From Moraxella haemolytica (GTDB lineage Bacteria; Pseudomonadota; Gammaproteobacteria; Pseudomonadales; Moraxellaceae), in assembly GCF_030177935.1 (NCBI RefSeq), contig NZ_CP089974.1, positions 1,984,001 through 2,048,000 of the forward strand: a DNA stretch of 64,000 nt. Reading direction: 5' to 3'. The notes below the pieces were generated by a model. It made no database searches, had not been told where the DNA came from, and worked only from the letters and a program-made list of their open reading frames with translations. Position 1 is the first letter of the stretch. Each line of letters begins with the position of its first letter. Positions 50,307-64,000 of the stretch are shown here, one piece after another. The translations under genes and the position numbers were made by a program.

Positions 50307-50390
50307 ATGAAACTATTAGAGATACAATACCCAATCAGCGCTCTTAATTGTTTCAGGTCGGTGTGCTATCATCACTCGTGTGATACCTAG
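50307..50390 (+). pseudogene. Truncated 5' end of an unknown gene
   Basis: A strong ribosome site (AAGGAG, 50294-50299) precedes ATG 50307, but the frame runs only 27 codons and overlaps the 3' end of the exporter on the other strand. An AT-rich promoter-like stretch lies upstream. This looks like the start of a lost plasmid gene cut by a recombination junction near 50330. Confidence 0.4.
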
Positions 50391-52301
50391 TGATTTGATC
50401 ATCTTATTAATCTGATGCTCTTTTTTAACATCCAAATGACTAGTGGCTTCATCCAAAAATAAAATTTTTGGTCTGCGGTATAGGGCGCGGGCAATAAAAA
50501 TACGTTGCTTTTGACCGCCTGATAGTATATTACCCATATCGCCGACAAGCGTCTGATAGCCCATAGGCATTGACATGATTTCATCATGAATCCCAGCCAT
50601 AATGGCGCATTTTTCCACCCATTCATTATCTGGTTTATCATCAAAAAAGCTGATATTTTCAACTAAAGAGCCTGCAAATAGTGTGTCATCTTGACTAACA
50701 CAGGCAATAATATCACGGGCATTTAGCTCTGCCATGCTGTGGTGAACCTTGCCTGCAATTTTAATCTCTCCTGATTTGGGCGTAAGTTCACCCATAAGTA
50801 AGCTCATCAGTGTACTCTTTCCACAACCTGTTGCCCCAACGATGGCTACCGATTCTTTATCTTTGATGTGAAAACTCAAATTGTCAATAATATAGGGTTC
50901 ATCATCATTATAAGCAAAGGATAGATTGTTTACCTGTATATCATAAACCAGTTTATCTTTTTGCTCTATTAGAGGTAGATAGCTATTTTTTTCTGTTTTT
51001 TCTAAAACAATGTCTGCTAACCTTTCACCATGCAAGTTTAACATTTTTACTTCAATAAATTTATCTATTAGATTGCTCACTCGTCCACCAAACTGGTTTT
51101 TATAGGCGATAAATGCCATTAAAATGCCAACTGTAAAAGTACCATCAATAACTAAATTTGCACCCAAATAGATAATGATAAGGTTTTCAAGCCCAAAAAT
51201 AATACCATTAATAAATCCAAACATAAGCCCTAATTTTTGGGTATAAAGTCCTGCATTAATGGTATTAACAAATAAGGTAAGCCATGTACTCTTTCTTATA
51301 TCTTCCTTGTTGAAACGTTTAATAGCACGAATACCGCACATAGTCTCCATAAAATGCGTACTCTGCTTAGCTGCATGTATAATTTGCTCTTCGGTAGCTT
51401 GTTTTAGGGGTGTATACCAGAGAAAGCGCAGGAGTCCATAGATCATCATTGCACCCACTGCAACCCATGCCAAAGCCGGGCTATAAAAGAACATCAATAC
51501 AAGTGTAAATACTGTCATCACACCATCTAAGACAACGGTCAAAAAAGTTGTGGTCAGCGTAGACTGAATGCTATCAATTGCTCCAAAACGAGAAATAATA
51601 TCACCCAAATGTCTTTTTTGAAAAAATTGACTGGGTAGATGAGTTAAATGATGAAAAACATTAGACTTCCATTGTATATTGAGTGTAGTAGAGATATACA
51701 TACTTATCCATGACTGAAGCAAGCTGGTTAGCTGTGTTAAAAACATAAGTATGCCAAAGCCAATAACCAGTGTCGTTAATAAATCTTTGTCAGCCGAAAC
51801 AATAGCATGATCAATCACCCACTGCATAAAAAATGGACTGGTTAGAGCAAATATCTCTAGCACCAATGCCAGTATTAATATCTGACCAAAAGACTTGTAA
51901 AGTCCTTTTATTTCACCAATCAGTTTGGATAAACGAATATTGACCTTATCTTCTTTTTTCTCAAAATCACTATCCGCCCATACCTCTAGGGCTATTCCTG
52001 TAAAATGATCTGATGCCTCTTGAAGTGTCATTAGTCTTTGTCCAGCACTTGGGTCTAGGATGGTAATTTTAGTTTTGGATACAGATTTTAATACCACAAA
52101 GTGATTCATATCCCAATGCAGAATACACGGCGTACGCAGCTGATTAAGCTCATTCAGTTCCAGCCTTAAAGGGCGTGTGCTAAGCTTCATTTGCCTAGCA
52201 ATCTTAATAAGCGTGTGCAAAGTTGCACCTTTTTGAGAAATAGGATATTTTTGGCGCAAACTCCATAAATCAGTAAGATACCCATGATAATGAGCTATCA
52301 T
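50316..52301 (-). CDS. C39-peptidase ABC exporter of a bacteriocin, N-terminally interrupted
   Basis: The open frame from ATG 52301 gives 661 residues. It holds most of the C39 peptidase domain (catalytic His in HWDMNHFVVLKS and the following Asp), a six-helix membrane domain, and an ABC ATPase with Walker A GATGCGKST, signature LSGGQKQR and Walker B ILFLDEATSHLD. Codons upstream read TESAECGLACLA, the catalytic-Cys motif, preceded by MPVIL and a TAA at 52338-52340. ATG 52355 with a Gln codon at that TAA would give a normal peptidase start. As it stands, initiation at 52301 loses the Cys, so processing should fail. The C terminus also ends early (ADWVLYL). The intact protein would cut double-glycine leaders and export the peptide. 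Confidence 0.85.
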   Translation of the reverse strand: MIAHYHGYLTDLWSLRQKYPISQKGATLHTLIKIARQMKLSTRPLRLELNELNQLRTPCILHWDMNHFVVLKSVSKTKITILDPSAGQRLMTLQEASDHFTGIALEVWADSDFEKKEDKVNIRLSKLIGEIKGLYKSFGQILILALVLEIFALTSPFFMQWVIDHAIVSADKDLLTTLVIGFGILMFLTQLTSLLQSWISMYISTTLNIQWKSNVFHHLTHLPSQFFQKRHLGDIISRFGAIDSIQSTLTTTFLTVVLDGVMTVFTLVLMFFYSPALAWVAVGAMMIYGLLRFLWYTPLKQATEEQIIHAAKQSTHFMETMCGIRAIKRFNKEDIRKSTWLTLFVNTINAGLYTQKLGLMFGFINGIIFGLENLIIIYLGANLVIDGTFTVGILMAFIAYKNQFGGRVSNLIDKFIEVKMLNLHGERLADIVLEKTEKNSYLPLIEQKDKLVYDIQVNNLSFAYNDDEPYIIDNLSFHIKDKESVAIVGATGCGKSTLMSLLMGELTPKSGEIKIAGKVHHSMAELNARDIIACVSQDDTLFAGSLVENISFFDDKPDNEWVEKCAIMAGIHDEIMSMPMGYQTLVGDMGNILSGGQKQRIFIARALYRRPKILFLDEATSHLDVKKEHQINKMIKSLGITRVMIAHRPETIKSADWVLYL

Positions 52302-52426
52302 AGCAAGACAGGCTAGACCACATTCAGCAGATTCGGTTTATAAAATAACGGGCATTTTGGCTGATAAACCAAAATTAATGCGTTTTAAAAAATCCATGAC
52401 TAAGATTATCCATAAAAACTTTGACA

Positions 52427-52449
52427 ATAAAAAAGGTGCAATTGCACCT
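52427..52449 (-). terminator. Terminator between the HlyD gene and the exporter gene
   Basis: The perfect 16-bp palindrome AGGTGCAATTGCACCT is followed on the minus strand by a T-rich run. It lies just after the HlyD stop, which is unusual inside an export operon and may reduce exporter transcription. Confidence 0.75.
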
Positions 52450-52466
52450 ATGACAAATTGATTGGT

Positions 52467-53729
52467 TTAAATTTTACCTGTGAGACTATATAGCGGTTCA
52501 AGCACCCATTCATATAATTTGCGTGTTTCATGCATGACATCACCCTCCAAGGTCATGCCAACTGCTAGGGGTAGTTCTTTGCCGTAGGCTGTTATGGTTT
52601 GCTTATCTAAATGTGCTTTGATGACATACATCGGTTCATTGGCGATTTGTTCAGTGGCTGATACTGTGCCAATGGTGGGTAAATTTTGTCCTGCATGAGC
52701 AGTTTTGGCAACAGAGATAATACGCCCCTTGGCATGTCCAAATTTTTGATAAGGATACGCTACATAGCGAAGCAATACTTCATCATCCGTCTTAACAAAA
52801 CCAATAGCACGACTCGGTACATACATCACTGCAATCAAATGGCTGTCATTAGGTAGGATGCTTACAAGTGACTGACTACTATCCACAAATTGCCCCACAT
52901 CGGCATGAGCGACACTTGCCACACCATCTACTTGGGCTTTGATAATCAAAGTATCGTTGGCTTGGTTTTGGATGCTATCGCTTTTGTTGTCAGACAATGT
53001 GCGTTCATATTGTAGAAGTGTTGTTTTATGCTCATGTTCTAGACGGGATAAGGCGATGGTTTGCTCTTTGATTTGCTTAGCAATCATCTCCTTTTCTCGC
53101 TCAAGGGCGGTCAGACTATTTAACTGTGTATTGTGTGCCATTGTTTGTGATTCTAGCTCTTGCTTGGATACCGCCTCACTTTGCATGGCAAATTCATATC
53201 GTGCCAAAGTCTCTTTGGCAATGGCAACCTGATGTGCCTGTAAATCTATTTGAGCTTGCAGTTTATCCATGTCTACTTGTAGACGCTCTATGGTATTTGC
53301 GATATTTCTTTTTTCAGCAGCTTGAGCTTGCTTGGTGCGAGTGATTTCATGTTCTATCAGCTGTCTTTTAAAGGCGAGCTCTTTATCTATAATACTTTGT
53401 ACATTACCTGCATCGGTATGACGAGTGGTAGAGATTTTATATAGCATATCTCCTGCCTTAACCGCCTGACCTTCTGATACATATTTTTCTATAATAACTC
53501 CTGCTGTTGTGGTATAGACTTGTACCAACCCTTTGTCAGGAATGAGTTGACCTTTGACTGTACTACGCTTGGTATATTCACCCCATACCAAAAATATCAT
53601 TAGTACAAGCCCTGCCATAAACGCACAAAACGTCAAAAAAGCAAAGCTAATCGGCGTTACTATCACAACTTTACCCACCCAATCTATTTTTTGGGCAGAT
53701 AAAGCTTCAGGACGAAATAGACTGGACAT
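52467..53729 (-). CDS. HlyD-family periplasmic adaptor of the bacteriocin exporter
   Basis: A 420-residue membrane-fusion protein. One N-terminal membrane helix (residues about 20-50), a biotinyl-lipoyl-like segment (GVIIEKYVSEGQAVKAGDML), a long coiled coil (about 115-250) and a beta-barrel C-terminal part (VPSRAIGFVKTDDEVLLRY). It resembles CvaA-type adaptors of microcin secretion, which join the inner-membrane ABC exporter to TolC. The frame appears intact. It overlaps the small upstream ORF by 23 bp. Confidence 0.9.
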   Translation of the reverse strand: MSSLFRPEALSAQKIDWVGKVVIVTPISFAFLTFCAFMAGLVLMIFLVWGEYTKRSTVKGQLIPDKGLVQVYTTTAGVIIEKYVSEGQAVKAGDMLYKISTTRHTDAGNVQSIIDKELAFKRQLIEHEITRTKQAQAAEKRNIANTIERLQVDMDKLQAQIDLQAHQVAIAKETLARYEFAMQSEAVSKQELESQTMAHNTQLNSLTALEREKEMIAKQIKEQTIALSRLEHEHKTTLLQYERTLSDNKSDSIQNQANDTLIIKAQVDGVASVAHADVGQFVDSSQSLVSILPNDSHLIAVMYVPSRAIGFVKTDDEVLLRYVAYPYQKFGHAKGRIISVAKTAHAGQNLPTIGTVSATEQIANEPMYVIKAHLDKQTITAYGKELPLAVGMTLEGDVMHETRKLYEWVLEPLYSLTGKI

Positions 53730-53916
53730 GATAGGTGTTATGATTTATAAATAAATTTATCATAAGGCATAATACAAGCACATATACAGCCATCCCTAAA
53801 ATAGCATTATCAGGAATTATGTCATTGTAATTGTGATAAACAACTTTTGATAATGTAAAAAATGATAGAATGGCTAAAACTCTAGATATGGTCATCATTT
53901 TATCGCGCATACTCAT
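53707..53916 (-). CDS. Small two-helix membrane protein, unknown
   Basis: A 69-residue protein with two hydrophobic segments (about residues 10-25 and 38-58). The ribosome site is weak, but the stop overlaps the HlyD start, suggesting coupling. Small membrane proteins beside bacteriocin exporters are often immunity proteins; that is inference only. Confidence 0.5.
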   Translation of the reverse strand: MSMRDKMMTISRVLAILSFFTLSKVVYHNYNDIIPDNAILGMAVYVLVLCLMINLFINHNTYHVQSISS

Positions 53917-53931
53917 ACATATTTCTAATCA

Positions 53932-54117
53932 TTAAAAATATTGGTCATTATGAAATAGACCATTTTGCAAATGCCTGTCTACGTAATTTTTGTAATCCTC
54001 ACCCATTTTATGATAATCCTGTATTTCTACAACATGACCTATGGTAAATACTGCCGCTACTTTTTTGTTTGGTGTTAGAACTATCCGACACCCCCAGATA
54101 CCATTAAGACTTGTCAT
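53932..54117 (-). CDS. Small hypothetical protein in the bacteriocin cluster
   Basis: A 61-residue soluble-looking protein. Its ATG overlaps the end of the preceding membrane-protein gene by 14 bp. No family is recognised. It could be part of a small immunity pair or a spurious frame. Confidence 0.4.
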   Translation of the reverse strand: MTSLNGIWGCRIVLTPNKKVAAVFTIGHVVEIQDYHKMGEDYKNYVDRHLQNGLFHNDQYF

Positions 54118-54295
54118 TCTTGTTAGAAAATTTTCTTTTCTTAAATATAAAAAATATACCCAAAAAAACCAAAGAACAATATATTACCCAATAAATATAG
54201 ACGTCAAAATTTGTTATCGTATCTATTTTTTGAACAAATAAACCGACAGCTAAAATATAAAAAAATACAACAACAGGCCTTGGGATTAAATCCAT
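54104..54295 (-). CDS. Small two-helix membrane protein, possible immunity protein
   Basis: A 63-residue protein with two membrane segments (VVVFFYILAVGLFVQ; VYIYWVIYCSLVFLGIFF) and a basic tail (KKRKFSNKN). AGGA lies 8 bp before ATG 54295, so translation is credible. Its size and topology resemble microcin immunity proteins. The function is inferred from location. Confidence 0.55.
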   Translation of the reverse strand: MDLIPRPVVVFFYILAVGLFVQKIDTITNFDVYIYWVIYCSLVFLGIFFIFKKRKFSNKNDKS

Positions 54296-54470
54296 ATTTA
54301 CATCCTAATAAGAAAATAAATTAAAGGGTAATAATAAAAAAATACACTAATCAGATTTCCTGTTTGGATTAAGTTTGTTGAAGTACAGGAAAATCATACC
54401 ATTTTAAGTTTGTGACGAATGTTTTTCTTTATAGTATATTTTTTAAACCAAAACCACTTCAAAGAATAAG

Positions 54471-54627
54471 CTAGGGTAAAATAATACCTAATTTATCACG
54501 ATGATCTTGAACTTTGCGATACATATCTAATGCCTCTTTTGTTAACTCACTATTCTCTATATTCTGTTATCAATACAGATAAAATAAAAGAATTTAAATC
54601 TGACATTTCTAAAGTAATAATTGTCAT
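54471..54627 (-). pseudogene. Frameshifted remnant of a small gene
   Basis: Two adjoining frames on the minus strand read MTIITLEMSDLNSFILSVLI and ELTKEALDMYRKVQDHRDKL and end at a TAG at 54471. They join at about 54555 through a one-base shift. Together they would make about 52-55 residues. The otherwise empty 54296-54711 gap contains nothing else that I can support. Confidence 0.35.
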
Positions 54628-54711
54628 CTTTTTGTCTATAATATTAATCCGTGTGATAGCTGCCGATTTTAATTTCTTGATTTATGCTTAATTTAAAATA
54701 TTCTAAAAAAA

Positions 54712-54906
54712 TTAGCGAGATTGCGATTTAGTCTTAATCATTTTTTTTGATATCTTAGAAAAAATAATCATTATAAATATAAACAATAACCATGAACTTG
54801 CATTTGATAAATCAAATAAATATTTAATAAACATATATATCAAGAAGCCTACTGTGAATGAAACCCATCCGCAATCACCAACAATATTTTTTAATAATTT
54901 TTTCAT
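54712..54906 (-). CDS. Candidate bacteriocin immunity protein (two membrane helices)
   Basis: A 64-residue basic protein with two hydrophobic segments (about residues 13-30 and 38-52) and a Lys-rich tail. Its ATG overlaps the precursor stop (TAATG), and a strong GGAGGA ribosome site lies inside the last codons of the precursor gene. Tight coupling to the precursor and its small basic membrane character are classic for immunity proteins, but no homologue is recognised. Confidence 0.65.
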   Translation of the reverse strand: MKKLLKNIVGDCGWVSFTVGFLIYMFIKYLFDLSNASSWLLFIFIMIIFSKISKKMIKTKSQSR

Positions 54907-55208
54907 TAAGGTAGTCCTCCAGAATACTCTAATTCGTAAGGTTCAGCAATTGTTCTATATTTACGATACCATTCCCAATCAAAATTTTCTACAGAATGTC
55001 CAATAACTACACCAACTTCCATACCTTTTGTTCCACCAAGCCTTTGTCCAGCAATACCTCCTATTAGAGCGCCCCAACTAGGCGGTTTTGATAAATCTGT
55101 TTTTGGTAATCCTAAAGACTGATTACCGCTATCCCCATAATTGTTCCCAGAACTATCCAACCCACCCCCAGATACCATCTTCATTTGCTCAATGTTTAGT
55201 TCAAACAT
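54906..55208 (-). CDS. Double-glycine bacteriocin (microcin-like) precursor
   Basis: A 100-residue peptide. The first 15 residues form a double-glycine leader of the class II type (MFELNIEQMKMVSGG), to be cut by a C39 peptidase. The core would be about 85 residues. It is Gly/Ser-rich at first, then has a glycine-zipper-like stretch (GALIGGIAGQRLGGTKG) that could insert in membranes, then a charged aromatic tail (FDWEWYRKY). The ribosome site AGGAG lies 7 bp upstream. It lies between the oxygenase and immunity genes. I do not recognise the core sequence. Confidence 0.8.
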   Translation of the reverse strand: MFELNIEQMKMVSGGGLDSSGNNYGDSGNQSLGLPKTDLSKPPSWGALIGGIAGQRLGGTKGMEVGVVIGHSVENFDWEWYRKYRTIAEPYELEYSGGLP

Positions 55209-55235
55209 AATAAACTCCTGTGAATAAAAAACAAC

Positions 55236-56342
55236 TTAAAGTACCAATTCAATAATATCCAACTCAGCCATTTTGGCTATCGCCGACCTAATATCATTGG
55301 ACATACTTTTATCAGTTATCTGTAAAAGATTGCATAAACTAATTGGCTCATATTGTATAATTTTCTTAAGCAAATATTGACTATCGTCATTGATATTAAT
55401 CTTTAAGCCATTGGCAATGACATAGCCTTTTTCAAGCGTTCTGCCATCTACAATGTTAGAGATAATCAACGCATCATCAGGAATGTCATTTGCGTCAGCA
55501 TTGGCATTACCAAACAACTGCATATTAAAAGCACTGTCACTGCGATAGTTCGCCATATGTTCTTGCATGAATTTATCATAAATCACTGGGTCTGTCATGA
55601 TGGCAGACAATTCATTACAAGCTTGTATAATATTATCTTTGTCACTTTCCCAGTCAGACAAATTGTATCTTAAGGGTAGGATGTTGGGGGTTTGTTTGGC
55701 TAACCACTGCATATAATCATAGCCTGTTGGGGCAAATGTTCCTATCGCTAAATGGAATGTCTCGCAACCCATTGGAACAGGATTGTGCCACCACCCACGT
55801 GGGATATATAGCACATCACCAGCTTCCAATACAATCTCCATGTCAGGTGTGGTTGGCTCTGGTACATCCACATCTTTGGATTGTTGCATATATAACGGAC
55901 TTTCAAAATTGGGTTTGTATAACGCCCAGTGTTTTTTGCCCATCAGTTGCACTGCAAACACATCACGAGTATCCCAATGGCTTTTAAAAGAGGCATCACT
56001 ACCAAACGCCAAATAACCACTTACAACCGTTGGCGCTTGTACAAAATGGGAAATTTGTTTTGCCAAATTATCTACAAAAGGTTCATTGTTAATGCGATTA
56101 TAAACAATGGTTGCGCCATGTTTCATATGATGATAAATGGCAGATTTAATAAAACGATAGCGAGTTCGTCCCATGTCATTAAAGCTTTCTACATACTCAG
56201 AAATGGGTACGATTTCACCCTTTCTAAGGCGAAAAAGCTCATCTGTGGGATTGGCTCGCTGATATAATTCGTTGATTTGTTTCCAAGTAATATTCAAATC
56301 TTTGACTGCACCCTTGAATACTTTGGGTGCTTGGTATAGCAC
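55236..56342 (-). CDS. JmjC/cupin_4-type Fe(II)/2-oxoglutarate oxygenase
   Basis: From GTG 56342 the frame gives 368 residues. The metal-binding HxD lies in SHWDTRD (about residue 155) with the distal His in ETFHLAIG, and YIPRGWWHNP is typical of the cupin_4/JmjC (YcfD-like) group. A C-terminal segment resembles a winged helix. Upstream in frame are several ATGs (56387, 56381, 56369) and SSQDFRR, then TAA 56343-56345, then the GTG. The upstream codons fit the family's usual start, so the TAA is probably a nonsense change. The gene leads straight into the precursor gene, so hydroxylation of the bacteriocin is a reasonable hypothesis. Confidence 0.8.
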   Translation of the reverse strand: MLYQAPKVFKGAVKDLNITWKQINELYQRANPTDELFRLRKGEIVPISEYVESFNDMGRTRYRFIKSAIYHHMKHGATIVYNRINNEPFVDNLAKQISHFVQAPTVVSGYLAFGSDASFKSHWDTRDVFAVQLMGKKHWALYKPNFESPLYMQQSKDVDVPEPTTPDMEIVLEAGDVLYIPRGWWHNPVPMGCETFHLAIGTFAPTGYDYMQWLAKQTPNILPLRYNLSDWESDKDNIIQACNELSAIMTDPVIYDKFMQEHMANYRSDSAFNMQLFGNANADANDIPDDALIISNIVDGRTLEKGYVIANGLKININDDSQYLLKKIIQYEPISLCNLLQITDKSMSNDIRSAIAKMAELDIIELVL

Positions 56343-57451: not shown

Positions 57452-58345
57452 TTAGGGCAAATTCTCAAAATATTCAATAAATGCCCTGTTTTCGCTTTCT
57501 TGGCGTTGTTTCTCGGCTTGTTCCGCTATTTTGGCTTGTCTTTCACGCTCCGCCTGTTCCTTGCCTGCTAGGCGTTCATTCTCGGCTTTTTGTAGGTTCT
57601 CATAGTACTCATCAAGCCCCCAACGCTCATCAATGGCTTTATTCTCAATGTTTCTTTTGCGAAAATGATTGACTGTTTCGCCCTTGCTTTCCAAATAGAT
57701 AATATATTCAGCGACTTTTTGACGGACAATAACAAGCTCTTTATCAGTCAAGCCATGCAAAATGTCTAGCGTGTCAGGGTCTCTTTCCTTGCTACTAGGG
57801 TTCAAAGCATTTGCCAATGAGTCAGCCTTTTTGCGTTTATCATTGATAATTAGCGTAAAATGCGTGATGATTTTACCTAGTTTTTCCTGTTCAAGGGTCA
57901 ATTCAAATTCGCCTTGTTCGTTAATTTCTTTTATAACTGGGTTTAAAACATATCTTTTAAAATCATTGACCGCACTATATTTATCAATACACCCAAAGAA
58001 ATCTTTCCATTCATCAATAACCATTGTTACTTGTGGATGTTTTTTGCCGTGTGGCGGTTTTGCCCCTGCTCTTTTACAGCACAATTCATAAAGGCGTTTT
58101 GTGTGAAAACGCTTTAAATCTATGGTTTTCTCATAGGGATATCTAGTGTAGGCTTCCCCTGTTTTTTGGATTAAATACGCCAAAACATCTGAAAACATCA
58201 AATAAATAAAACCGCTCTTTTCTTGGTAGGCTACCGCCTGCACCCAATTAGCGTGCAAGTCTAACAACTCATAATCACCTTTTGGGTTTATAAAATACAA
58301 TCTGACAAAAAAGGAATGCAACACTACATTCCTTTTTATTGACAA
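57452..58345 (-). CDS. Rep_3-family plasmid replication initiator, truncated
   Basis: The open frame gives 297 residues from a TTG. It matches the C-terminal two thirds of Rep_3 initiators (ANWVQAVAYQEKSGFIYLMF, RLYELCCKRAG, DFKRYVLNPVIKEINEQG), winged-helix proteins that bind iterons. The N-terminal domain is missing because the frame runs back into the GST stop codon. Downstream of the TAA at 57452-57454 the same frame continues to 57308 (DEQSWIIDEVGHTIEPFLKQ), so the C terminus is also cut by a likely nonsense change. The C-terminal part is an Ala/Glu/Arg-rich coiled coil. It is almost certainly non-functional. Confidence 0.75.
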   Translation of the reverse strand: MSIKRNVVLHSFFVRLYFINPKGDYELLDLHANWVQAVAYQEKSGFIYLMFSDVLAYLIQKTGEAYTRYPYEKTIDLKRFHTKRLYELCCKRAGAKPPHGKKHPQVTMVIDEWKDFFGCIDKYSAVNDFKRYVLNPVIKEINEQGEFELTLEQEKLGKIITHFTLIINDKRKKADSLANALNPSSKERDPDTLDILHGLTDKELVIVRQKVAEYIIYLESKGETVNHFRKRNIENKAIDERWGLDEYYENLQKAENERLAGKEQAERERQAKIAEQAEKQRQESENRAFIEYFENLP

Positions 58346-58948: not shown

Positions 58949-59229
58949 AAAAACTCCGTGATGATTAATTAGTGAATAATAAAACCCAGTCCATCATAAA
59001 CCCCACCACAATAAACCAACTATATACTCTGCAATAAATGGGATAATTTAAAATGATAAGGTATGATGTGGGATAGGGTATTTGAAAGGGCGTTACACTA
59101 GGTGCAACAAATTGACAGGTCAAAAACTTTTTTGAGAAAGATGAGATTCATTACTCATCTTATAAATTTTCCATATTTTAGCATATAAGCCAGCATAAAC
59201 ACTATGGGATTTTATTTAAAGCGAATAAA

Positions 59230-60138
59230 TTAATCCAAAATTTCTAAGTATGCCAAGCCTTCCAGTATAAAGTTAATATACTCTTTGGTTTGGTTGAGTG
59301 CTGGCTTATGAGCCATAATAAATACTTGATGCAGTTTTTTATTAGTTTTTTGCTTCATTCTCTGAATGCTAAATTTAACAAAACTAGTTTGTTCAATCAT
59401 TTCTTTGGGGATAAAAAAGGTAGGTCTTACGGTATTAGCTGTATCGCTCTCATTGATTTTTAGCTCCTCGTCCTTCAGAGTATCTTTAAATCTTATTAGA
59501 AAGCCGCCATCATCCATCTCGTTTACCCAAGCCTTGCCATAATAAATACGCCAGCAATCATCTTCAAGCTCTGATAAATCTTGCCCTGCTATTTCAATAA
59601 AAATGTCTTGTAAACTCTTTCTTTCTTGAAAGGGTATTGGCAAGGTCAAAAGATAGTTCTCTTGATTTAAAAAAGCAGACACAATAACAGACAGTCTTTG
59701 TCTGCTATTTATTTTTCTTTTGTGGGTGTTATTATTCTGTTTTGGGCTGCGTCTTTTGATTGATTGCGAAGAGTTACGGTCTAAGTCATCATCGTACTGC
59801 TTTTTTGGTGCTGGTTCTGTTAGGTCAAATAGGATTTCACCACTTTGCACATTTTGATAATGACTGTCATTATCTGATTGGCTATGGTTAATCTTAGCAA
59901 GGTTTTCTTGTTTGCCTAACTTGCAATCAATCTTGTGATTTTCTACTGAGCGAAAGTGTGGCTCTACTTTGCGTTCGTTTTTAGGTTTGGATAGATTGAC
60001 ACAAGTTACGGCTATGCCACACAAAGGACAGGTAAAATTCTTTTGACTTGCAATCTTGCCAGCCTGATAAGCAATATCGGCATCTTTGGGATTGATGACT
60101 TTTTGTAAATCCAATGAGTAGGCGTTAGGTAAGGTCAT
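59230..60138 (-). CDS. Hypothetical protein with N-terminal zinc-finger-like motif
   Basis: A 302-residue protein starting at ATG 60138 behind AGG. N-terminal CPLC (about residue 37), a Cys at about 46, EPHFRS and a later Cys resemble the zinc-binding start of CoiA-like proteins, but nothing more of that family is evident. A basic low-complexity middle (IKRRSPKQNNNTHKRKINSR) separates it from a globular C-terminal half with a conserved-looking WRIYYGKAWVNEMDDGGF. Function unknown. It lies next to the palindrome array and phage-like genes and is probably accessory. Confidence 0.7.
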   Translation of the reverse strand: MTLPNAYSLDLQKVINPKDADIAYQAGKIASQKNFTCPLCGIAVTCVNLSKPKNERKVEPHFRSVENHKIDCKLGKQENLAKINHSQSDNDSHYQNVQSGEILFDLTEPAPKKQYDDDLDRNSSQSIKRRSPKQNNNTHKRKINSRQRLSVIVSAFLNQENYLLTLPIPFQERKSLQDIFIEIAGQDLSELEDDCWRIYYGKAWVNEMDDGGFLIRFKDTLKDEELKINESDTANTVRPTFFIPKEMIEQTSFVKFSIQRMKQKTNKKLHQVFIMAHKPALNQTKEYINFILEGLAYLEILD

Positions 60139-60261
60139 TGTAGTGCCTGATGGTTGCTAATTTGAAAATTATCATAGCAATTTCTAAGAAATAGCACAAG
60201 ATGGACAAAGTGGAAAAGGTTTAAAAAGTGCCGATGTCGGCACATTTAAAAATATTGAACA

Positions 60262-60371
60262 AAAGCGACGATGTCGTCGTTATTTACTCTGCCTTTTGAT
60301 TAATTCAAAAGGTAATGCTGGTGTTACTTTGATTGTTGTTAGCTTTCAAATGTGCCGATGTCGGCACATTT
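60262..60371 (+). repeat. Block A of a diverged direct repeat within the palindrome array
   Basis: It is homologous to block B (60906-61017) over about 110 bp, sharing TTTACTCTG, TTGATTAATTCAAAAGGTAA-like and GTTGTT stretches. It contains three palindromes whose arms differ from those in block B by paired changes. Confidence 0.8.
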
Positions 60372-60651
60372 AAGACTGGTAGTGGTTATCGCTTCTACAT
60401 AAATTACCCACTGTCGGGCAATTTAAAAATGAAACAGCCTTTCAAATGTATCGCTGGCGAGACATTTGAAATTAAATTTCAAAAACAAAAAAAATCAGAT
60501 AAGGATAGCAATCACATAAAATGGACGCTGGCGTCCGTTTTAAATGTAAAAAAACAACAAGTCCAAAAAGTGAAAACGTTTTCACTTTTTAAAATTAAAT
60601 AGATTAGTAAACTGTATCGTCCGTTTTAAACACTTAAAATAGCGGTCAAAA

Positions 60652-60777
60652 ATGGTCATAACCGTCTTAATTGGCATTGATAGGGCTAAATCAACACTTA
60701 ACAAAGAGGGCGTAAGAGAGCTTGTTTTTATGTGTGCAGATGTCTGCGAAACAGTCATCAAAATTATCAACCAATAG
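60652..60777 (+). CDS. Very short ORF inside the palindrome array
   Basis: A 41-codon ORF (MVITVLIGIDRAKSTL at its start) reading through one palindrome as MCADVCET. No ribosome site is seen. It may be a chance frame. Confidence 0.15.
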   Translation: MVITVLIGIDRAKSTLNKEGVRELVFMCADVCETVIKIINQ

Positions 60778-60905
60778 CAAAAATCCCGACATCGGGATTT
60801 TTGGGTAAAAGTGACGACGGCGTCACATTTGAAATACTAGAAAAGTTCCGCCGGCGGGATTTTTGTAAAATGGACGATGTCGTCCATTTTGATGAAATGC
60901 TGAGT

Positions 60906-61017
60906 AAAAGCGACGCTGGCGTCGTTTTTACTCTGTCTTTGGATTAATTCAAAAGGTAACGCCAGCACGTTACCTTTGGCTATTGTTGGTTTTAAATGTG
61001 ACGATGTCGTCACATTT
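60906..61017 (+). repeat. Block B of a diverged direct repeat within the palindrome array
   Basis: The counterpart of block A (60262-60371). First palindrome: CGACGA-TG-TCGTCG in A becomes CGACGC-TG-GCGTCG in B. Last palindrome: GTGCCGA in A becomes GTGACGA in B, with matching changes in the other arm. Confidence 0.8.
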
Positions 61018-61106
61018 GCCCTTTATGGCACTGTTTAAAAATGACCGCTGTCGGTCATTTTGGCAATCCTTAAATCGGAAAACTGTTTTCCATTTTGCTA
61101 ACAAAA

Positions 61107-61145
61107 ACCGCCCCAAAACCTTAAACAGTAAGGATTTGGGGCGGT
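61107..61145. repeat. Long hairpin (17-bp stem) near the end of the palindrome array
   Basis: The arms 61107-61123 and 61129-61145 pair with one mismatch around a 5-nt loop. On the minus strand it is followed by a T-rich stretch and would work as a terminator. It is larger than the 24-bp elements and unrelated in sequence. Confidence 0.7.
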
Positions 61146-61293
61146 AGCGAGAACGCTTAAATGAAACCAACCGTTGCACTTGTTGGCGGATGTATTATAG
61201 CCCAAAATGGGTAAAAGCGAAAACGGTTTTCGCTTTTGGACGGTGATTTTTTAAACTCGTTTGAGAAAATTTGAATCAAAAAGTAAAAAATGC

Positions 61294-61322
61294 TTGACAA
61301 TATCCCATAAAATTAGCATAAT
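61294..61322 (+). promoter_or_regulatory. Strong sigma-70-type promoter before the phage leader
   Basis: TTGACA (61294-61299), a 17-bp spacer and CATAAT (61317-61322). It drives transcription toward the structured leader and the 90-residue ORF. Confidence 0.7.
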
Positions 61323-61328
61323 GATTGT

Positions 61329-61447
61329 GCTACTGCAAAATCAGTAGCCAGCCGTGAGAAGCTGAGTATTAACAACAGGCTAGCAAGCCGTATTTGTCAT
61401 TATCGCAGTCTACAATGATTGCTTTATGTAATGATAAGCGGTTTTTT
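61329..61447 (+). ncRNA. Structured leader RNA, possibly C4/cI-type phage immunity RNA
   Basis: Just downstream of the promoter is a perfect hairpin CTACTG/CAGTAG (61330-61347), then further short stems, and an attenuator-like stem before TTTTTT near 61441. In phages P1 and P4, a leader RNA of this layout acts in antisense to silence downstream genes. The class assignment is a guess from layout, not from a covariance match. Confidence 0.3.
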
Positions 61448-61616
61448 GTTTGCACCCCTTTTATGCCTTTTCTTTTTATGGTGGATAAGGGGCAAGGCGA
61501 GCTTATGCTCGGCTGGTGTCTGTTGTGCCAGTTTCTCACCCTTGTCCTTTATCCATCGCCCTATACGTGAGAAATATAGAGCGGTATTTTACGATACAAC
61601 AGAAAAGGTAATCCCT

Positions 61617-61889
61617 ATGATCACTCCCAATTTTTCCCATTCTGGCAATCCTAATTGCGATAGCACCAATCAACGCCCCATCAGACCAAAGCCAAGCTGT
61701 GTTTGGCAAAATGGGCAATGGGTACTCAATGATGAAGCCTATAACCATCTTTTGAATGTGCGTGATACGCTACTTGCGTTTAGTAGCTATGCTCGTATCA
61801 ATAACGATAAATGCAGTGATGCCCTATTAAACACTTTGGGTATGCTGTCAGACATGATGACTAACACCCTAGAAGCCCAAGAGTCCTAG
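61617..61889 (+). CDS. Small phage-like hypothetical protein
   Basis: A 90-residue protein. ATG 61617 is used, with AAGG 8 bp upstream; a longer open frame to 61419 has no ribosome site. It contains CVWQNGQWVLNDEAYNHLLN followed by a helical region. Short proteins of this pattern occur in prophages, and its place after a leader RNA resembles Icd-like phage genes. Function unknown. A terminator follows. Confidence 0.6.
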   Translation: MITPNFSHSGNPNCDSTNQRPIRPKPSCVWQNGQWVLNDEAYNHLLNVRDTLLAFSSYARINNDKCSDALLNTLGMLSDMMTNTLEAQES

Positions 61890-61914
61890 TCAATATCGTA
61901 GCAATCCTTTGATT

Positions 61915-61952
61915 AAAACCGCCTAAAAATACTTTTGGGCGGTTTTTGTTTT
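61915..61952 (+). terminator. Terminator after the 90-residue phage-like gene
   Basis: The stem AAAACCGCC / GGCGGTTTT is followed by a T run. Confidence 0.85.
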
Positions 61953-62089
61953 TAAAGTGTTTTCTTAAAACGTTTTCATGGAGAGTTTGTCGCCTGTTTT
62001 TGTAAAATGTTTTTAAAAATTTGGCAAGCCTTTTTTGGGCGTGCTTGATTTTTTTTTGTTATTTTATTTATCACTTTTTAAGGTGTTTT

Positions 62090-62437
62090 ATGAGCAAAAT
62101 CAATGCACAAGATGAACAGCAGTACGAAATGGTGATGACAATCTCAGAATTTTTAAAAAATGAGAATCTTGTCGCCAATGATTGTGATGGTGTGGCAATG
62201 CGATTGTATGAATGCTTGCAAAAGGTTTTTGGTGGCTGTAACATCTATTTTAAAAAAGGTGTTGTTGGGCAAGCGGACGAAGAAGGTCGGCAAATGCTGA
62301 TAGACCAAGATAAAGGACTTAGTATTCATCAAATTGCCCAAAAATATCAAAAAACCTGTCAATCTGTCTACAAGAAGCTATCCAAAGCAAGGGCAGAAAG
62401 ACGCAAGCAAAATAATGAAAACTTTGGAGATTTATAA
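62090..62437 (+). CDS. Mor/C-family phage transcription activator
   Basis: A 115-residue protein. ATG 62090 follows AGGTG; the longer frame codes for a spurious hydrophobic extension. The N-terminal half carries the Mor dimer domain (NDCDGVAMRLYECLQKVFGG) and the C-terminal half a helix-turn-helix (LSIHQIAQKYQKTCQSVYKKL) with a basic tail. Mor and C switch on middle and late genes of Mu-like phages. It lies 11 bp before the I-like gene, so it may control that operon. It is the clearest phage regulator in the window. Confidence 0.82.
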   Translation: MSKINAQDEQQYEMVMTISEFLKNENLVANDCDGVAMRLYECLQKVFGGCNIYFKKGVVGQADEEGRQMLIDQDKGLSIHQIAQKYQKTCQSVYKKLSKARAERRKQNNENFGDL

Positions 62438-62448
62438 GGTGGCAAACA

Positions 62449-63159
62449 ATGAATGACTTAGAAGTAAAACGCTTTCAAATTTCAAGAACGGGCGTGCATA
62501 CAGACAGTAACGGCAATGAACATACTTTTTCTGATACGCTATTTGATAAACTGGTAGCACGATTTAATCAACTGGCAAATCATGGTAATCGACAAACACC
62601 CCTATATCTTGAACACCCCCAAAGCAAAGCTGACAATGACCCAACACGCCATAAAAACTATGGCTATGTGTCTAGCCTTGAACTGGATAATGGGCGATTG
62701 TATGCGGTAGCGTGGGTTAATCGTGAACTTGTCAATTTGGTAAAAAGCGGACAATATCAAGCAGTATCGGCTGGCTTTATGAAAGTGGGTGATGATTTGT
62801 GGTTAGACCATGTCGCTTTTGTCAAAAGACCTGCGGTAAAAGGCATGGAGGTGCTTAGTTTCTCGGAAAATTCTTTTGTGCAAAACTGCGTAACAGCCTT
62901 AGTAAATACTCATGATTTCAATGCTGGCAATACCATTCACGAAAAGGCTTTATCGTGGATGAAAGCCTTTAAAACCGATTATGAGACAGCGGTTATTTCA
63001 ATCATGCGTGAGCAAGCAAGTACTGCTAATTTTTCAAAAAGAAACAGCAACAACCAATCCTATCAGCTGCACCAAAAAGCATTGGCTTACCAAGCTCAAT
63101 ACGGCGTAAGTTATGAAGTGGCGGTGCGTGAATGCTTAAAACGAGGAGCGGCTCTATGA
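62449..63159 (+). CDS. Mu I-like phage head protease/scaffold protein
   Basis: A 236-residue protein matching the N-terminal protease part of Mu gpI (TPLYLEHPQS, GYVSSLELDNGRLYAVAWVN, AVSAGFMKVGDD, KRPAVKGMEVL). gpI processes the phage prohead. The C-terminal third holds two similar short segments (EKALSWMKAFKTDYETAV; QKALAYQAQYGVSYEVAV). It is shorter than Mu gpI. No other head genes precede it, so it may be part of a remnant or of a satellite element. Its stop overlaps the next start (ATGA). Confidence 0.78.
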   Translation: MNDLEVKRFQISRTGVHTDSNGNEHTFSDTLFDKLVARFNQLANHGNRQTPLYLEHPQSKADNDPTRHKNYGYVSSLELDNGRLYAVAWVNRELVNLVKSGQYQAVSAGFMKVGDDLWLDHVAFVKRPAVKGMEVLSFSENSFVQNCVTALVNTHDFNAGNTIHEKALSWMKAFKTDYETAVISIMREQASTANFSKRNSNNQSYQLHQKALAYQAQYGVSYEVAVRECLKRGAAL

Positions 63160-63785
63160 GTAAATCAATCATCAAAAATGACATTGCCAAAATCAAAAGT
63201 GAGATTCAAAAATGGCACGATGAATTAAAGCAATTAAATCAAGAAAAATCAAGCTATGAAATGCAAATCAAAGAGCTTGAAATGATGCCTGTAAATCGTA
63301 CGGATTTTGGTGTATTGCTGAAAGAATCCATCGCACAAGAAGCAAATAACTACACCAAAAACATTGCTCAAAGCCTATTACAACCTGAATTTTCCGACAA
63401 AGAAATGCAAGAAAAGCACAACGGATTTAAGGCGATGAATGAAAGAAGTCTTAAAGACTTTGAGTGGTGTAAGAATAATCAAAGATTTGAGTGGCTATTT
63501 AATTCTTTTCGTAGCCATCAAAATCTAATGACTCCAAGCAATAGCACAGAAACAAGACAAATGTTATGTTGGTTAATGCCTGATGTGGTGTATGAAAAAA
63601 CCATGCACATTATCAATACCGAAATAGGCGACGAATGGGGGAATGATGATTTACCAAGCATTAGTGAGAGATATAAACTAATTTTATCATTAAAGGAGAA
63701 AATTAGTTCATGCCAAAATCGGATTGATGAATTACAAGGGGTTATTGATGAGATGAGTTCAATAACAATTAAGCCCGAAATTTAA
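63156..63785 (+). CDS. Hypothetical coiled-coil protein in the phage-like operon
   Basis: A 209-residue protein. ATG 63156 overlaps the upstream stop and follows GAGGAG. Residues about 1-50 and about 175-205 are predicted coiled coils (IKSEIQKWHDELKQLNQEK). The middle is helical with several Trp residues. No family is recognised. Its coupling to the I-like gene suggests a shared role. A strong terminator follows. Confidence 0.65.
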   Translation: MSKSIIKNDIAKIKSEIQKWHDELKQLNQEKSSYEMQIKELEMMPVNRTDFGVLLKESIAQEANNYTKNIAQSLLQPEFSDKEMQEKHNGFKAMNERSLKDFEWCKNNQRFEWLFNSFRSHQNLMTPSNSTETRQMLCWLMPDVVYEKTMHIINTEIGDEWGNDDLPSISERYKLILSLKEKISSCQNRIDELQGVIDEMSSITIKPEI

Positions 63786-63788
63786 GTG

Positions 63789-63827
63789 AAAAAACACCTT
63801 TAATGTAAAAAATTAAAGGTGTTTTTT
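63789..63827 (+). terminator. Terminator after the phage-like operon
   Basis: The perfect 16-bp stem AAAAAACACCTTTAAT / ATTAAAGGTGTTTTTT has a 7-nt loop. No gene is seen between here and the window end at 64000. Confidence 0.9.
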
Positions 63828-64000
63828 GTTTTGTGTCATAAATAAATTGAAATGCCCTTACACCAAGTGAAAGAAAATTTTGTTTGTTTTATTGTAAAAA
63901 TTTGGGAGTTTTATCGTGTTGCGTAACACCATCACCTGCTGAACCTGACTATCGTAGTCGCTCATGCGGTGGTCGCCCCCATCTTGGGCGGTTACACCAA

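Follow-up and report, generated by a model that had tools for sequence, protein, structure and literature searches.

A palindrome array in Moraxella haemolytica composed of candidate operators of the phage protein family DUF3102

Introduction

About 1 kb of Moraxella haemolytica DNA (60224–61237 of the window, which is the whole stretch of 64,000 nucleotides analysed) holds an array of at least 17 palindromes of 24–26 bp. AAA[AT]...[AT]TTT ends and a YR centre are common to all members, while bases 4–8 are variable but paired. The locus raises the question of what these palindromes are, and what a row of them with so many different arms does in one genome. The preliminary description of this DNA held that a structure or a two-fold symmetric binding mode seems to be maintained here. 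As possible roles it named a replication or packaging region, the binding targets of a dimeric protein family and a self-spreading palindromic element.

Results

Composition of the array

With a threshold of at least 9/12 arm matches, 14 even-centred 24-bp palindromes were counted in 60224–61061, compared with a mean of 0.64 and a maximum of 4 in 500 shufflings of the array region. Two odd-centred members with one additional centre base (61072–61096 and 61213–61237) and one decayed member (60401–60424, 8/12) bring the count to 17. This bears out the earlier figure of about 18, or at least 17, palindromes of 24–26 bp in 1 kb. The claim that they are too regular for chance also held, as shuffling failed to reproduce them, and the flanks (AAAA/AAAT ... 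TTTT/ATTT) and the TG, CG and CA centres were as first described. Twenty other 20-kb stretches sampled from the same genome showed 0–4 sites of the outer design each and none with the CG-NYRN-CG core.

The first palindrome (60224–60247, AAAAGTGCCGATGTCGGCACATTT) has GTGCCG arms, the same as those of the site linked to the gene of a phage protein family, DUF3102, in Moraxella phage L474/L217. The second (60261–60284) has the GCGACG arm, as in the DUF3102 site of an M. cuniculi phage. The third (60348–60371, AAATGTGCCGATGTCGGCACATTT) is found as an identical 24-mer in phages L474/L217 and L211. The decayed fourth member has an orthologue of 12/12 in a second array, L220. The fifth (60444–60467, AAATGTATCGCTGGCGAGACATTT) lies in a segment (60423–60491) with an 87% match over 69 bp to DNA upstream of DUF3102 in phage L452/L353. 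The TGGACG arm of the sixth (60518–60541) is an M. lacunata phage specificity, and the seventh (60566–60589, AAAAGTGAAAACGTTTTCACTTTT) is 12/12. The eighth (60779–60802, ATCCCG arms) and ninth (60807–60830, GTGACG arms) fall within 60777–60834, a stretch similar to the double site that the M. lacunata phage has upstream of its DUF3102 gene. These flank matches to L452 and the M. lacunata phage suggest that array modules derive at least partly from the segment upstream of DUF3102.

The tenth palindrome (60841–60864) has GTTCCG/ATCCCG arms, and the 24-mer of the eleventh (60867–60890, AAAATGGACGATGTCGTCCATTTT) is also present in a Neisseria prophage (L183). The twelfth (60906–60929, GCGACG arm) opens a duplicated module, in which 60261–60371 is repeated at 60906–61017 with paired arm changes. 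The thirteenth (60952–60977, AAAGGTAACG...CGTTACCTTT) has an L220 homologue of 11/12, and the fourteenth (60994–61017) shows GTGACG arms. The fifteenth (61038–61061) has TGACCG arms, which are TGCACG in L220 through two compensatory pair changes. Of the odd-centred members, the sixteenth is of the CGGAAAACG type and the seventeenth is AAAAGCGAAAACGGTTTTCGCTTTT; the 24-bp form of the latter, shorter by a single base at the centre, occurs inside the DUF3102 genes of several phages. Some array sites were decayed (8–10/12). In total, the approximately 17 sites represent at least 10 arm specificities.

BLAST searches of phage and plasmid collections gave no match to the array, and the Rfam search of the array found nothing except the adjoining C4 RNA. 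Members vary in arms and centre, in agreement with the earlier statement that the array is unlike CRISPR, with its identical repeats and unique spacers. The absence of T tails, also asserted before, stood only in part: 13 terminator-like sites were called against 2.5 expected, because the conserved TTTT ends double as a short tail.

Island genes and orthologous arrays

The array belongs to a shared island (about 58996–63931). On the minus strand, a 302-aa ORF of unknown family (59230–60138) is transcribed away from the array. Just past the array on the plus strand lies a putative sigma-70-type promoter (61294–61322, TTGACA-17-CATAAT), assigned by its 11/12 consensus match. It is followed on the same strand by a C4 antisense RNA (61474–61563, Rfam RF01695, 61.4 bits with gathering at 45), a Mor-like late transcription activator (62087–62437), a short Mu I-like head maturation protease (62449–63159, 236 aa vs 363 aa in the M. 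lacunata phage) and an unknown 217-aa ORF (63132–63785), the last gene of the shared island.

Three arrays were found. The one at L220, on a Moraxella-type viral contig (IMGVR 2847060657_000007), comes with counterparts of the 302-aa ORF, C4 RNA, Mor and protease; array and neighbours are 87–94% identical to those of the window, and the genes that flank the island differ. In M. cuniculi (G003, contig 36) the array is shortened and sits among different genes, one of them transposase-like; the window's array neighbours are lost there. The suggestion that arrays sit beside Mor/I-like genes was therefore right for two of the three, while the general partner is DUF3102, which is absent from the window. 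The 302-aa ORF has one relative, in G007, with no array there.

When 11 orthologous palindromes were compared between the window and L220, five pairs were changed on both sides and still complementary, against 0.46 expected if sites change independently. Centres switched between TG and CA, and orthologous arrays also differ by deletions. L220 retains the dyads, so the symmetry is kept in a related element, which the preliminary description had made a test of its view.

Two other features of the window were recorded. Just outside the shared island, 57452–58345 encodes a Rep3 initiator of plasmid type whose N-terminal domain is apparently short. A peptidase-type ABC exporter, an HlyD-like protein, a small double-glycine-leader ORF (MFELNIEQMKMVSGG) and a cupin-type protein occupy 50316–56342, which by its gene content looks like a bacteriocin cluster.

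Palindromes linked to DUF3102 genes

Single palindromes of the same grammar were observed in Moraxella and Neisseria phages and prophages and in those of many other hosts, transposable phages included; a loose core pattern run on viral contigs matched mostly by chance. Palindromes inside reading frames recur at one place of one protein family, identified by Pfam as DUF3102 for part of the members. To avoid bias, 119 distinct DUF3102 genes were gathered only by the domain that precedes the palindrome. An in-frame palindrome at a fixed place was present in 94 of these genes over all offsets tested. At the commonest offset after the domain, the mean dyad of the 119 genes was 7.92/12, compared with 2.95 ± 0.36 at other offsets, and 59 genes reached at least 10/12, of which 21 were perfect. 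Synonymous codons redrawn from each gene's own usage, with the amino acids kept, gave expectations of 0.53 sites of at least 10/12 and 0.005 perfect sites. Set against the 59 observed, the figure of 0.53 places the constraint on DNA; constraint on the protein does not account for the palindrome. In the fusions of DUF3102 with an adenine methyltransferase-type domain (L231:7880 and L232:5113), the palindrome is read in another frame (KTDAGVHF and KTDASVQF) at about the same place. A protein motif, N-x-x-T-S-x-x-L, was considered as the cause and was ruled out by the synonymous redraw and these other-frame palindromes.

The in-gene site of phage B3 is the sole perfect 24-bp palindrome in 38.4 kb. 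Mu-like Moraxella and Neisseria phages have DUF3102 without an in-gene site, and the palindrome lies just upstream of the start codon instead. A few DUF3102 types (e.g. L324 and Ps60) showed no palindrome nearby. Nearly all DUF3102-linked sites have a YR centre, and the two bases flanking that centre are complementary to each other. Centres of TA, AT or GC were seen at in-gene sites of L325, L323 (AAAAGCGGCGTTAACGCCGCTTTT), L430 and L327; the YR preference is strong, not absolute. The DUF3102 gene of transposable phages precedes transposase A and follows a small regulator annotated as IclR-like. PHROG families of DUF3102 are of unknown function, no paper on its function was found by title or abstract, and literature on palindromes in Mu-like phages and on decoy operators contained nothing on point.

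Extra intergenic sites were observed in Neisseria-type transposable phages (L299, L296, L214, L218, L250 and L261), some of them just before capsid/tail genes. Their arms are mostly GCGACG, also in phages whose DUF3102 site has a different arm (G025, G026 and G028); in G029 the two match. Four Neisseria-type phages with such sites were sampled, and three of them carry arms at odds with the phage's DUF3102; sites and proteins can evidently become uncoupled.

Three further observations deserve mention. At least six dispersed AAA..GAAAACGTTTTC..TTT palindromes occur in L514, L493, L512 and L517 (contig IMGVR 3300049847_000435), with no DUF3102-like ORF in the stretches looked at; perhaps these belong to another partner protein. 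About 12 short palindromes of different families, three of the AAA..TTT design, lie within 450 bp of an Acinetobacter modestus contig (L181:1230–1700), possibly another operator array. One gene at L087:2604–2794 has three in-frame palindromes with different arms right after an sRNA-Xcc1 match, which recalls the C4 RNA beside the window's array.

A residue-to-base code

Near-identical DUF3102 proteins with different sites differed mainly in the helix-turn-helix. EREARRLM, in one Neisseria and one Moraxella phage, goes with CGGACG, and HYRE(A/T)ARLM with GTGACG. HKREVQRLI and GRRESQRLM are both paired with GCGACG, HT(K/R)E(I/V)TRLM with TGGACG, and (G/R)SETARL with GTGCCG. Mutual information over 114 rows peaked for residue 55 with base 6 (z = 23) and for residue 52 with base 7 (z = 14). 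Related proteins are non-independent samples and phylogenetic background inflates these z scores; outside the stretch encoded by the palindrome, almost every other column gave at most 12, which represents that background. Both residues (in our numbering) belong to the second helix of the modelled helix-turn-helix. Arginine at residue 55 was associated with CG (19/24), glutamine with GC/AC (17/22) and alanine with GT/TT (18/19). Six named phages outside the code-building set (B3, KP12, Ps59, PhiKM, Mae-JY22 and phiSHP3) have an in-gene palindrome, and all six obeyed R-CG or Q-GC.

Among the roles proposed at first, this covariation favours that of binding targets for a dimeric protein family. 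Regarding what is maintained, the two-fold symmetric binding mode agrees with arms that co-vary with recognition-helix residues, while the alternative half of that proposal, a hairpin or cruciform, is disfavoured. No support was found for a replication or packaging region.

Predicted structure of DUF3102

The predicted DNA-binding core of DUF3102 (130 residues, mean pLDDT 89.9) matched Noc–NBS (Z 7.9, 102 residues, 2.7 Å), Spo0J–parS (7.4), ParB (7.3 and 7.2) and KorB–operator (6.1), Z values under 8 being ones that, as the structure-comparison tool warns, can reflect a common arrangement. ParB-family chains held ranks 1–5, 7, 10 and 11, and the unrelated Raf1 appeared at 6.2 and below. Foldseek alone found no significant match for either DUF3102 model, and the sequence search of solved structures found no DUF3102 match. 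The N-terminal part was modelled as helices only. Taken together, structure and code give good support to a predicted core resembling those of Noc, ParB and KorB, and we strongly infer that DUF3102 forms dimers and is a helix-turn-helix protein whose DNA-binding domain is of this type.

DUF3102 shares with ParB, Noc and KorB a core of the same predicted shape, a short palindromic site and a specificity set by few interface residues. A parS site of Bacillus subtilis lies inside spo0J, a parallel to the in-gene DUF3102 site. In ParB/Noc, four residues suffice for specificity, and R173/Q173 selects the base (PMC7383237). There are also differences. Pfam scans of three DUF3102 proteins detected no ParB-type (CTPase) domain. 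In phage B3, DUF3102 (B3ORF13) has no ParA neighbour and adjoins transposase A and a regulator that related phages have annotated as IclR-like. Site specificity changes from one phage to another in DUF3102 and is not conserved.

Array arms and phage specificities

Array arms cover all five sampled DUF3102 specificities of Moraxella phages (GCGACG, CGGACG, TGGACG, GTATCG and GTGCCG). For the in-gene set the coverage was 11/52 and for other Mu-like phages 6/14; the comparison of Moraxella with the latter gives P about 0.014 with only five Moraxella phages sampled. At least six array arm types match DUF3102-linked sites (GTGCCG, GCGACG, TGGACG, GTATCG, GTGACG and GTTCCG), as does the GAAAACG type, which is found inside DUF3102 genes. 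ATCCCG, TACCCG, TGACCG and GTAACG had no partner among the sampled Mu-like phages. No DUF3102 match was detected in the M. haemolytica genome.

Discussion

The palindromes are most likely operators of a specificity-diversified DUF3102 family, and their identity as DUF3102-linked sites is very probable. Each half-site would be read by a recognition helix, of which two residues would set the variable arm bases, and the AAA/TTT ends and YR centre would be common to all specificities. Arms would then differ because the helix residues differ between phages. The Moraxella array holds at least 10 arm specificities on a small island of phage origin, in a genome where no DUF3102 gene was detected, and it may act on the DUF3102 that transposable phages bring in on infection. 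This explanation as a whole has in our estimate a probability of about 0.6.

As to how the array may act, DUF3102 made early by the phage could be captured at foreign copies of its own site, a decoy or centromere-incompatibility-like effect that would disturb phage control of the early operon. Such a function would explain both the breadth of specificities and the absence of an own DUF3102, and we put it forward tentatively, at somewhat less than even odds. One or two sites per specificity would be a weak sponge against a replicating phage, and regulatory DNA left behind by phages would have a similar appearance. A bolder proposal, and a rather unlikely one, gives the island a part in anti-phage defence or in competition between phages, with a catalogue of variant operators titrating or sensing the DUF3102 of transposable phages.

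The array could also be passive, built by repeated recombination or duplication of the short segment upstream of DUF3102 in successive Mu-like phages. This origin would explain the decay and the duplications: array segments share flanks with that phage segment, a module is duplicated internally, deletions separate orthologous arrays and several members are decayed. The excess of compensatory pair changes and the 17 recognisable sites suggest some upkeep instead, although whole-site replacement by recombination could also yield compensatory pairs. We consider a purely passive array unlikely.

An infecting phage's DUF3102 might instead bind its matching array site, spread or loop, and switch the island genes, so that one locus would detect many phages. 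The placement of the array between divergent units (the 302-aa ORF on one side; C4 RNA, Mor and protease on the other), with the putative promoter just beyond, would be explained in this way, and L220 has the same neighbours. KorB provides a precedent for long-range silencing (PMC11790492). Against this reading, sites are not concentrated at the promoters, the island genes have no known function and the M. cuniculi array lacks these neighbours. We consider such switching unlikely.

RNA hairpins serving as terminators, processing or stabilising stems are very improbable. Most members do fold, with stems up to 10 pairs and 4-base loops, the terminator-like calls are numerous, and several phages have an intergenic site right after a stop codon. 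However, the arms track a DNA-recognition helix, many sites lie within a reading frame, and a loop needs neither the complementary outer pair of the central four bases nor the nearly constant YR centre. A self-spreading REP-, RPE- or dRS3-like element is scarcely credible: the palindromes are dispersed across unrelated phages and some copies lie in other genes (L087 and L183), but they keep one fixed place in one gene family of distant phages, their arms follow that gene's protein, and a mobile repeat was rejected on finding that place.

The DUF3102 operator reading can be set beside known systems. Known parS and operator clusters repeat one specificity beside their own protein. The array likewise has several sites for DNA-binding dimers close together; it differs in its approximately 17 sites of at least 10 specificities, with no protein of the family detected in the genome. 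The neisserial dRS3/NIME and REP sequences are short repeats of palindromic form whose inner bases vary, and they occur scattered or in arrays. They have other ends and another core, the ATTCCC-N8-GGGAAT repeat of dRS3/NIME is absent from the array members, and the array type goes with a single phage gene and the recognition helix that it encodes. The C4 immunity regions of P1/P7 and P4 share the C4 RNA, which here stands beside the array, but no antirepressor gene could be recognised among those of the island, and we know of no such array as part of C4 systems. A CRISPR array is a loose parallel only, as a row of items corresponding to different phages; here the items would be protein-binding sites. 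As far as could be found, the Moraxella array is the first row of many-specificity candidate operators in a genome without the protein.

Conclusions

DUF3102 is a widespread phage family without known function, and our results predict a ParB/Noc-like DNA-binding protein whose palindrome usually lies in its own gene. The testable residue-to-base code, extending over phages of several bacterial groups, offers a natural collection in which to study how DNA-binding specificity evolves. If the catalogue of variant operators does serve against phages, it would have an immune-like breadth obtained through protein–DNA recognition and not through RNA guides. Should the array indeed affect incoming phages, bacteria or prophages would have in it a new means of dealing with rivals.
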